A stretch of 64,000 bases of DNA from Thermotogaceae bacterium (GTDB taxonomy: Bacteria > Thermotogota > Thermotogae > Thermotogales > Thermotogaceae). The notes below the pieces were generated by a model. That model made no database searches, was not told the origin of the DNA, and saw only the letters and a list, made by a program, of their open reading frames with translations. How positions within the stretch are numbered: position 1 is the first letter of the stretch; the number at the start of each line of letters is the position of its first letter. Where the stretch lies: NCBI GenBank assembly GCA_027077795.1, contig JALWTT010000006.1:372001-436000 (forward strand), written 5' to 3'. This document shows, in pieces, positions 45,049-48,479 of the stretch. A program made the translations under genes and the position numbers.

Positions 45049-45068
45049 GCGGGGCGGAAAAGCCCCGC
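45049..45068 (-). terminator. Hairpin after the barrel-protein gene
   Basis: A 7-bp GC-rich stem GCGGGGC / GCCCCGC with a 6-base loop lies between 45023 and 45079. On the minus strand it is followed by CCATTTG rather than a clear T-run, so it may terminate only partly. Confidence 0.5.
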
Positions 45069-45078
45069 TCGTTGTGAT

Positions 45079-46287
45079 TCAGAAACCTAGACCGAATCCA
45101 GCTGATACAGTAACACCTGTCATCTTGGACGGATCAAGGTTGAACAGTCCCCCGTAATCTATAATCCCAGCCGTTGCTGTTAATCTCATTAAATGAAGGT
45201 CCAGATTCAGTCCAACTGTCTTTTTCCAGGCGGGCCCGGCACTCGTTATATCCATCCAAATTGTGTTCAAAAGGCTCAGATACACACCAAACTCGCTTGT
45301 TCCCAGGTCTGGAATGCCTTTATAATGTGCACCAATCTCCGCGATTGGAAAGTCGTACAGCGCAGCAACGGATATCTCCATTGGCATTTTCACCGGGATG
45401 GGTTCTGGAAGTTTCGAGAGCTTTTCAGGTAAGCTTTCTTTCGGCTCCGTTTCGCTCATTTCCAAATTCACCAAACTTGCTTCGAAGCTCACAGAAGCAT
45501 ATCCCTCGTATCCGAGATTTGCCGGAACAACGGATATGTTGCTCACTCCTCCAGCAACCTTTACGTCACCAAATTTGGCCATCGCACCTATGTCTAAGTA
45601 ATATCCGAAGTTTCCAGTTAAGCCGTTGAGATCCAGCTCTTCGAAGTTCTCAAAGCTTGGAAGAACACTTAGAAGTCTAACATTTCCGTTCACCTTAACC
45701 TCAACGCTGGCTTTTTCCTCATCGGAGCTGTAGTAAAAATGAGCCTTTGATTCTTTGTCAAACCACAAAAGAGGTAGGTACGTACCTCCTGACAGGGCTA
45801 TGAAATACTTGTCTTTTATCCCTATCCCAAACACTCCTCCAACCTTTGCAAAGAGTCCTCCACTCAGTATGTTGAATGTGCTCTCTTTCGTCTCGCCAAT
45901 TTCAGCGTTTCCAAAAATGACTTCCATAAGTTCGTGAGGAAGCATAAGAGATATATTGCTCTCAGCACTTGCGCCTATTCCAAACCTCGCTGATCCAACG
46001 CCGATCCCTAGGTATTCGCTGATAGAGAGTGCTGGGGAAAGATAAAGACCTCCTTTGAGAAGATTCAATCTAGATTTGTCCAAAACCACTTTCTCACCTT
46101 TCGCCATTTTCATCATGTCTTCCACTGAAAACAGGTTTTGGTTCAGATCAAGAGACACTTGAAATTCTGAAATATCTAGAGTTGCCCTGGGGTTGTCGAA
46201 AACCATAACGGGATTGCTGGGCCATAGGAAATTTGCGAATCCAAAGTAAACAGCTGGAATTAGCACTAGGAGTATTAGCTTTTTCAT
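45079..46287 (-). CDS. Probable outer-membrane beta-barrel protein (unknown family)
   Basis: 402 residues, not recognised. A signal peptide (about 1-18) is followed by many short alternating strands (GIGVGSARFGIGASAES, GGLFAKVGGVFGIGI, VTVSAGFGLGF) and a terminal Phe, which fits an outer-membrane barrel. A Pro/Glu-rich insert (ETEPKESLPEKLSKLPEP) may form a loop or periplasmic linker. It is coupled by ATGA to the upstream lipoprotein gene, so the two are probably made together as an envelope complex of the toga. Confidence 0.72.
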   Translation of the reverse strand: MKKLILLVLIPAVYFGFANFLWPSNPVMVFDNPRATLDISEFQVSLDLNQNLFSVEDMMKMAKGEKVVLDKSRLNLLKGGLYLSPALSISEYLGIGVGSARFGIGASAESNISLMLPHELMEVIFGNAEIGETKESTFNILSGGLFAKVGGVFGIGIKDKYFIALSGGTYLPLLWFDKESKAHFYYSSDEEKASVEVKVNGNVRLLSVLPSFENFEELDLNGLTGNFGYYLDIGAMAKFGDVKVAGGVSNISVVPANLGYEGYASVSFEASLVNLEMSETEPKESLPEKLSKLPEPIPVKMPMEISVAALYDFPIAEIGAHYKGIPDLGTSEFGVYLSLLNTIWMDITSAGPAWKKTVGLNLDLHLMRLTATAGIIDYGGLFNLDPSKMTGVTVSAGFGLGF

Positions 46288-48479
46288 TCTTCATCACCCC
46301 CTTCAGTACTCACTGTAACATCGGCGATGAGCTTAACTATCAGGTCTATAAAGCCTTCACTGGAGATCTTTTGATCTCCCGTTAGAACCGCTGTGGCGGA
46401 TATGGGAAGGGAGTTTCCTTCCAGATCGCTTCCGGAGACCGTTATCTCACCGCTGAAGCTACCTTCACCGATCATCAGAGAACTTTCTGCCGAGCCGACA
46501 TCTAAAACTATTCTGGGGCTCATGCCTGTGGTATTAGTTCCCTCTATTAGAAGTGTGGCCGAATGGACTTCTGAACCTGATGTGTGAAGACTAGAGATAT
46601 CCACCGGTCCACCTAGTAAATCGCTCAGCGGAACACTTATCTCATCACTCCCAAGGTTTAATTCAAGGGGCATCTCAGCTTCTACCCTCGCATACATGGG
46701 TTTATCGACATCCAAGACAGCACTTTCGATGTTCAGATCGACATCATAGATAATGGCGTTCGATTCTGATTCTGAGACGGCACTCTTCAGCGCGTCTATC
46801 AGATCATTCATCGAGGTTTCACCGGATGATATGGTCACGGAAGCACCTTGATCGTTAAAAGTGGCATCGATCGTTCCACTTATATCTATGTTGGACACAA
46901 GTGTCCCCGATATATCCAAGTAGGGGAGGAGATCTCTTACAACTGAAAGATCATCAACTGGAATTTTCCCGTTGTATTTTACAGTTGTGGAGTTTAAAGT
47001 AACCTGGCTTACTTTGATCCCATCAATCACTATCGTTGCACTTATCCCGAGGTTGCTTCCAAGAGTAACGTTGTTCAAAACAAGCCTCTCACCATCGTAG
47101 TTTTCTGGAGAAGCGTTGTAAGATATGTCAAAGCTGTTGTTAACCAAGAGCCTCTCGCTGGACAAATCAAGAAGAGTTAGTTTTGAGGAGCTTTCCTTCT
47201 CTATGACGAAGGATTTGTTAAGGATTGGATCAAAGTCGCTTGAGTTTAGAACCACGTTTACATCCATTGGAAGGGATGATTCATATTCTAAGGTAACTTC
47301 CCCCGCAGAGAATTTGATACTCCTCAAGAGCTGAGCCAGGCTGCTCAAGGAAACACTTTTTGTGCTAGACACATCGAGATCGCTGTTTAAGTACACGAGG
47401 GTAGCTACATTCAAGTCTTCCAAGTCACCGTTTATATCTATAGGGGATTCTAGGGATTTCACGGTAGCATCAACTGTGTCGATGTTTATATCGACAGGTA
47501 AGTTGATGCTCTCAAGGTTAGTAATGATTCTTCCGCTATCAACGCTCATGGGATTTCCTCCTATGCTCCCAGAAACTGAGGCAAATTCAAGTTGTGAACT
47601 CCTTATCACCAGTTTTCCACTTTCTATGTCAAGTTCTTCCACCCCGGAGGGCTTATCGACTCTTTGCGAGAAATCTATTTTTAAACCTTTTACAAAATCT
47701 ATCTCAACTTCGGGCTTCACAGAAAGTATGATATCTCCTTCACCGTGAGGAGATTTGGAATACAAGGTTAGCGAGAAGGAAATTTTCAAGTTGCCATTAC
47801 CAACTTCGATACTTTTCCCGCTTAGATCTATATATACCTTGTTACCACTGGATGAATATGTGCCGTGCGATACGATATTGCCCTTTCCATCTGTTACCGT
47901 GGCATTCACATCAATCAAGCTGACATCACTCCATGGAAGGTCCACTGACATCTCTATTCCACCACTGATTTTAAAAGATATGAGCTTTGAAGAATCAACG
48001 CCCATGTTTAAAAGTACATCAGTTGAATCCGTCGTGGATTCTCCGGCAAGTACTCCAGGCAGGTGAATGCTCATGTTCACAGAGCTGAAAGTTGGCAGCT
48101 CTGCATCCACATTGCTGTTGATTTTCCCAATTGTTGGAAGAGTCACCCCGAGGTTAATGGGAATCTCTTCTGAAAGTTCTGGGATTTGTTCTTTCAGGTC
48201 GTCGGGATTTATCTGCAAAAAAGTGTTGCTGTATGTCGCTAAAACCGGGTTCCCCTCTTTAAAGTGCAATCCTTCTACATCTTTTTCCAAATTTTTGAGA
48301 CTGCTCATAATGAATTCACCTGTGTTAACACTTGTGGCAATTACGGGTATTCTCACGGTGGTCTTTAAACCTATCTTTGGATGCTGAAAATTTTGGATAG
48401 CTTGCTTGGGATTCACACCGCACGAAGTCATGAGCACGGTGAGAACTGCCGCTAAAAGAACTATCGTTCCCTTTTTCAT
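46284..48479 (-). CDS. Large beta-rich lipoprotein of unknown function
   Basis: 731 residues. The signal ends in LTVLMTSC with Cys20, a likely lipobox. The rest is Ser/Asp/Val-rich and built of many short strands (for example SVNMSIHLPGVLAG, VSLSSLAQLLRSIKFSAGEVTL, VSNIDISGTIDATF) without enzyme motifs. The repeated 'I-D-I' strand pattern suggests a long beta-solenoid or groove-like structure, possibly of the lipid-transfer kind, but this is inference. GAGGAGGTGAT supports the ATG. The downstream barrel gene overlaps by 4 bases. Confidence 0.75.
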   Translation of the reverse strand: MKKGTIVLLAAVLTVLMTSCGVNPKQAIQNFQHPKIGLKTTVRIPVIATSVNTGEFIMSSLKNLEKDVEGLHFKEGNPVLATYSNTFLQINPDDLKEQIPELSEEIPINLGVTLPTIGKINSNVDAELPTFSSVNMSIHLPGVLAGESTTDSTDVLLNMGVDSSKLISFKISGGIEMSVDLPWSDVSLIDVNATVTDGKGNIVSHGTYSSSGNKVYIDLSGKSIEVGNGNLKISFSLTLYSKSPHGEGDIILSVKPEVEIDFVKGLKIDFSQRVDKPSGVEELDIESGKLVIRSSQLEFASVSGSIGGNPMSVDSGRIITNLESINLPVDINIDTVDATVKSLESPIDINGDLEDLNVATLVYLNSDLDVSSTKSVSLSSLAQLLRSIKFSAGEVTLEYESSLPMDVNVVLNSSDFDPILNKSFVIEKESSSKLTLLDLSSERLLVNNSFDISYNASPENYDGERLVLNNVTLGSNLGISATIVIDGIKVSQVTLNSTTVKYNGKIPVDDLSVVRDLLPYLDISGTLVSNIDISGTIDATFNDQGASVTISSGETSMNDLIDALKSAVSESESNAIIYDVDLNIESAVLDVDKPMYARVEAEMPLELNLGSDEISVPLSDLLGGPVDISSLHTSGSEVHSATLLIEGTNTTGMSPRIVLDVGSAESSLMIGEGSFSGEITVSGSDLEGNSLPISATAVLTGDQKISSEGFIDLIVKLIADVTVSTEGGDEE

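Follow-up and report, generated by a model that had tools for sequence, protein, structure and literature searches.

A lipoprotein gene and a predicted outer-membrane barrel gene exchanged and lost as a pair in Thermotogota

Within the window, a 64,000-nt stretch of contig JALWTT010000006.1 from a Thermotogaceae bacterium, two overlapping genes are located on the minus strand. The upstream gene (46284..48479), delimited by its ORF and homologs, encodes a predicted lipoprotein of 731 aa with the lipobox MTSC, including Cys20, and tandem beta modules, and the downstream gene (45079..46287), for which profile matches were obtained in addition, encodes a predicted outer-membrane barrel of 402 aa related to DUF5723. 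Stop and start codon overlap in the sequence ATGA (46284..46287, minus strand; 'tcat' on the plus strand). Checking of the ORFs reproduced all of what a sequence-only reading had recorded here, i.e., the coordinates, the protein lengths, Cys20, the terminal Phe of the barrel, and the ATGA overlap. A G+C-rich hairpin just 3' of the barrel gene (45052..45070, strand not assigned) is a possible terminator, in a region in which terminator-like hairpins were no more frequent than in shuffled sequences, and a promoter scan of the region stayed at chance level.

The N-terminus of the upstream protein, MKKGTIVLLAAVLTVLMTSC, carries the Cys at position 20 behind a predicted signal peptide (residues 1-19; 48423..48479, minus strand), and the equivalent region in relatives holds the cassette breaks described below. 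This cysteine was invariant in an alignment of 14 sequences and nearly invariant in 34 sequences, and the protein has, as judged from its sequence, the signal peptide and conserved lipobox Cys that define a bacterial lipoprotein. Three copies of a repeat module were detected on the minus strand with an iterated module profile, namely at residues 168-239 (47763..47978, 25.7 bits), 271-345 (47445..47669, 54.1 bits), and 386-461 (47097..47324, 15.3 bits), the null maxima being 9.5 bits for reversed lipoproteins and 9.4 for unrelated neighbours. HHalign also related residues 264-330 to residues 366-447 (score 49.8, E 9e-9; reversed control 15, shuffled maximum 14). The module of ~108 aa occurs in tandem in lipoproteins of family f9 as well, and one in-frame module (about 110 aa) distinguishes the lipoproteins of the close relatives G050 and G088. 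No single tandem period across the entire lipoprotein was found, the ~108-aa module alone being clear. The C-terminal region, in which the alignment revealed an NTTG motif conserved in most members (residues 649-652; 46524..46535, minus strand), is retained even in the shortest forms, which cover only the N-terminal ~95 and the C-terminal ~235 positions of the profile. Overall, ortholog lengths ranged from 324 to 1171 aa for the lipoprotein versus 374 to 425 aa for the barrel. The lipoprotein of the window is acidic (net charge -58) and Ser-rich, with strand-like (i, i+2) alternation of 29 compared to 21.4 in shuffles (sd 3.0).

The downstream protein has a signal peptide and ends with the beta-signal-like sequence TVSAGFGLGF (45082..45111, minus strand), with hydrophobic or small residues at positions 1, 3, 5, 7, and 9 from the terminal Phe end. 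Its strand-like alternation reached 16 compared to 10.6 in shuffles (sd 2.4), a positive control, the protein at the OmpB position of the same genome (see below), reached 14 compared to 6.9 (sd 2.1), and cytosolic proteins of the window did not exceed their shuffles. Comparison with DUF5723 (PF18990) resulted in 23.3 bits (E 6.3e-5) for the window copy, below the Pfam gathering score of 26.8, which is exceeded by three orthologs (L044, 34.8 bits; L124, 33.5; L191, 33.4); matches at E <= 0.1 were obtained for 6 of 39 barrel family members. By way of these orthologs, the predicted barrel is related to DUF5723. Both proteins had been proposed to belong to no known family, which stood for the lipoprotein, as it gave no match in Pfam or NCBIfam and its family appears to be described by no library searched, and gave way in part for the barrel, whose window copy is sub-threshold. 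DUF5723 also matched proteins of Bacteroides among the control genomes, and a literature search returned no paper mentioning DUF5723 and none on this pair. Based on signal peptide, C-terminal end, alternation, and DUF5723 relation, the second protein is probably an outer-membrane beta-barrel. In the alignment, N25 was invariant and an NPA motif common; an N-terminal hatch and an NPA motif are hallmarks of the FadL-type superfamily of 14-stranded barrels. AlphaFold2 modelling with alignments of five rows yielded 14 strands for the barrel, at a pLDDT of 30.9, and a lipoprotein model with a pLDDT of 37.5, both below usable confidence, and because of these values no fold is claimed for either protein. 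Foldseek hits of the barrel model to barrels at TM about 0.2-0.3 (OMPLA 0.23) were treated as meaningless, and the lipoprotein model found nothing. Single-sequence and profile searches against PDB sequences likewise resulted in no hits for the pair.

Protein searches in 61 related genomes were followed by profile searches in 103 genomes of the phylum, which yielded the barrel in 49 genomes and the lipoprotein in 38; a contig scan, dependent on close sequences, gave four loci only. The sequence-only reading had regarded the two genes as coupled and had suggested a search for them in other Thermotogota, and this was borne out, contrary to the lack of conserved pairing that it had named as refuting: in 40 loci with a visible gene upstream of the main-copy barrel, a homologous lipoprotein gene lies directly upstream in the same order and on the same strand, with spacings of -17 to +42 bp (homology assigned by profile or blastp, some genes being cut by contig ends and that of L128 being broken by a stop). 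These loci span five families, i.e., f1 (the family of the window), f3 (Fervidobacteriaceae), f4, f8, and f9. The genes further out vary widely from genus to genus and include flgBC/mutL, asparaginase, ACP/pyrG, SUF, and the ATP-synthase side, among others, and the pair has therefore survived numerous rearrangements intact. In one f8 locus, a gene about 2 kb from the pair (L042:5481-7739, plus strand) encodes a 752-aa protein that resembles BamA (Omp85) by eye.

With a wider barrel profile, the barrel was detected in 52 of the 103 genomes. Thus, roughly half of the phylum has the pair, and it is not a general component of the toga, since the other 51 genomes do not contain the barrel. In the 103-genome search, f2 lacked the pair, as did genera g4 and g5 within f1. 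A search at the conserved flanks in pair-less genomes showed differing neighbourhoods and no replacement pair, and tblastn against plasmids resulted in no match. In f11, the equivalent position is occupied by a 223-aa lipoprotein, and the barrel behind it scores above the DUF5723 cut-off; homology of this lipoprotein to that of the pair was not shown (2.8 bits). Moreover, some barrels appear to act alone, since they occur without a lipoprotein as second copies in f9 (L125:4615-5838 and L126:4813-5967) and as relatives present in sole copy in f4 g15 (L121:5618-7015 and L122:6000-7496).

In the barrel tree, G021 (g8) and G031 and G039 (g12), which all harbor short lipoproteins, cluster across genera (support 85/88), and the long forms of G033 (g12) and G017 (g8) cluster together. 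The tree of the C-terminal 240 lipoprotein residues recovered the same short group (support 100/98), and the two trees agree. The trees of the two flanking genes, on the other hand, follow genus, and G021 and G017 are almost identical there. At the DNA level, the flanks of G021 and G017 share 94.5% identity across 4,443 bp on one side and 94.8% across 4,915 bp on the other, compared to identities of 30% for the barrels and about 27% for the lipoproteins, which have 340 and 838 aa, respectively. DNA similarity is lost ~65 nt after the start of the lipoprotein frame and regained for the final 36 nt of the barrel gene, the breaks lying in the signal peptide, within the first 22 codons of the pair, and in the final 12 codons of the barrel. 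As the flanks are ~95% identical, the pair is divergent, and the breaks lie at its two ends, both genes were replaced together. G031 and G033 revealed a similar pattern, with flanks 77-78% identical. The joint exchange arose either by recombination within the flanks or by sorting of old alleles; in a published survey, very little recombination was found between Thermosipho species (PMC6211235).

Joint loss was observed as well. In G035, the last ~138 nt of the barrel gene alone are left at the same site, and G060, in comparison with G085, has lost the lipoprotein gene and retains only the 3' third of the barrel gene (scars of G035 and G060 at L216:3313-3589 / L220:6471-6947). Thus, the lipoprotein gene and most of the barrel gene were deleted jointly in both genomes. 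In several close genome pairs, the pair also evolves faster than most of its flanks. The excess is modest in some of these comparisons, such as G015/G042, and the rates of certain flanks (MutL, a secreted protein) match that of the pair. Kept together, swapped together, and deleted together, the two genes represent one dispensable, fast-diversifying envelope unit of toga-bearing bacteria. That they are unrelated genes and mere neighbours, as the few second-copy barrels standing alone might suggest, is practically untenable given 40 adjacent pairs in five families, concordant trees, and joint deletion, and the joint swap already refutes it.

The toga periplasm is wide, and little of this envelope is known beyond OmpA1, a spacer with a reach of ~50 nm, OmpB, and a few hydrolases (PMC3387000). 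A barrel with a long partner lipoprotein of beta repeats could be placed in this space as a strut, in which the barrel would be the outer-membrane anchor and the lipoprotein would bridge to the inner membrane or wall and set the gap. The sequence-only reading had likewise proposed that the lipoprotein could span the wide periplasm. A fixed strut predicts a conserved length, and the variable length of the lipoprotein therefore argues against it: orthologs range over the 324-1171 aa given above next to a barrel of nearly constant size, and differ 2.5-fold (340 versus 838 aa) in near-identical genomic backgrounds. In addition, half of the phylum does not have the pair, relatives have deleted it, and the genome of the window encodes an SLH spacer of its own with a porin gene next to it, so that we regard the periplasm-spanning strut as unlikely. 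This SLH (OmpA-type) gene lies just upstream of the window and is followed by the gene of a 379-aa barrel (both genes at G000:C6 369774-372258, L159), the last 258 nt of which form positions 1-258 of the window; by position, as in the published arrangement, the 379-aa barrel is the OmpB of this genome (PMC3387000). The 402-aa barrel was accordingly rejected as a candidate for OmpB, the OmpB-position protein being encoded elsewhere and scoring ~0 bits against the barrel profile, and the lipoprotein was rejected as OmpA1, as it gave no SLH match and has beta-type repeats instead. Next to an SLH gene of G009, we also noticed a gene (L162:2957-3574, minus strand) whose 205-aa product exceeds the Pfam cut-offs for LptA/LptD_N (39 bits) and LptC (29 bits), which would be unexpected if the phylum had no lipopolysaccharide transport.

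A role in transfer of lipids or other hydrophobic compounds, with the lipoprotein as a beta-groove chain that passes lipid to the barrel and replaces AsmA/TamB, is attractive because the Pfam models for TamB (PF04357) and AsmA (PF05170) each matched in 0 of 103 genomes of the phylum, control diderms being positive, although these models may miss remote AsmA-like proteins. The strand-like alternation of the lipoprotein would also fit. We nevertheless judge this role to be quite unlikely, as an essential lipid route should not be dispensable for half of the phylum or disappear with nothing in its place, and as the lipoprotein is acidic and Ser-rich and differs in length between near relatives. 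Uptake of nutrients by a passive barrel with a ligand-capturing surface lipoprotein, similar to SusCD and independent of TonB, would be in line with a barrel-lipoprotein operon and with an accessory, exchangeable distribution reflecting differences in substrate niche. Yet Pfam searches revealed no TonB-dependent receptor or SusD family match in either protein or family, and no transporter or hydrolase genes consistently accompany the pair, which makes such an uptake system rather unlikely.

Replacement of both genes by distant alleles, loss of both, differing module numbers, and faster change than in most neighbours are typical of surface-exposed units selected by phages or competitors. Since the pair displays this pattern, we favour a barrel that carries or displays a cognate lipoprotein of variable length, both forming a matched pair that is probably surface-located and subject to diversifying selection and that likely serves binding or adhesion, a functional interpretation to which we give about an even chance. 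The second gene would encode a DUF5723-related outer-membrane beta-barrel and the first its dedicated lipid-anchored partner, in which the N-terminal piece and the C-terminal domain are constant and the ~108-aa beta modules vary in number. Synthesised jointly from the overlapping genes, the two proteins would function as a matched set. The C-terminal domain would most likely dock on, or thread through, the cognate barrel, and the modules might be displayed at the cell surface and bind surfaces, polymers, or solutes. Pressure by phages or competitors may then diversify both the module number and the identity of the whole pair. It is the evolutionary pattern that suggests surface exposure of the lipoprotein, and a periplasm-facing lipoprotein could also be swapped with its barrel. 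More tentatively, the pair might be the first hypervariable locus for surface proteins to be recognised in Thermotogota, a cassette replaced as a whole or shed under phage pressure, in which module number tunes reach. In any case, the pair adds a unit found in about half of the phylum to the poorly known toga envelope. The joint swap with its sharp breaks amounts to a natural experiment with near-isogenic short- and long-form strains, which could reveal the role of the pair, its possible use as a receptor by phages, and any dependence of a physical distance on the number of modules.

In comparison with known systems, the pair shows partial similarities to several of them. SusCD-type pairs have a dedicated lipoprotein encoded beside an outer-membrane barrel, and the adjoining of lipoprotein and barrel genes is shared, but here the lipoprotein consists of tandem modules. 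TamA-TamB and AsmA-like systems, in which a barrel is paired with, or serves, a long beta-rich envelope protein, resemble the pair in this combination and differ in that the partner here is a lipoprotein of very variable length, with no TamB/AsmA match in the phylum. DUF5723 proteins are of similar length to the barrel, and three orthologs score above the cut-off of this family, whose definition includes no partner lipoprotein. Finally, OmpA1-OmpB of Thermotoga maritima is, like the pair, a two-gene unit of the outer envelope in Thermotogota whose second member is a Phe-ending barrel of ~400 aa, but OmpA1 is an SLH coiled-coil spacer and not a lipoprotein (PMC3387000).
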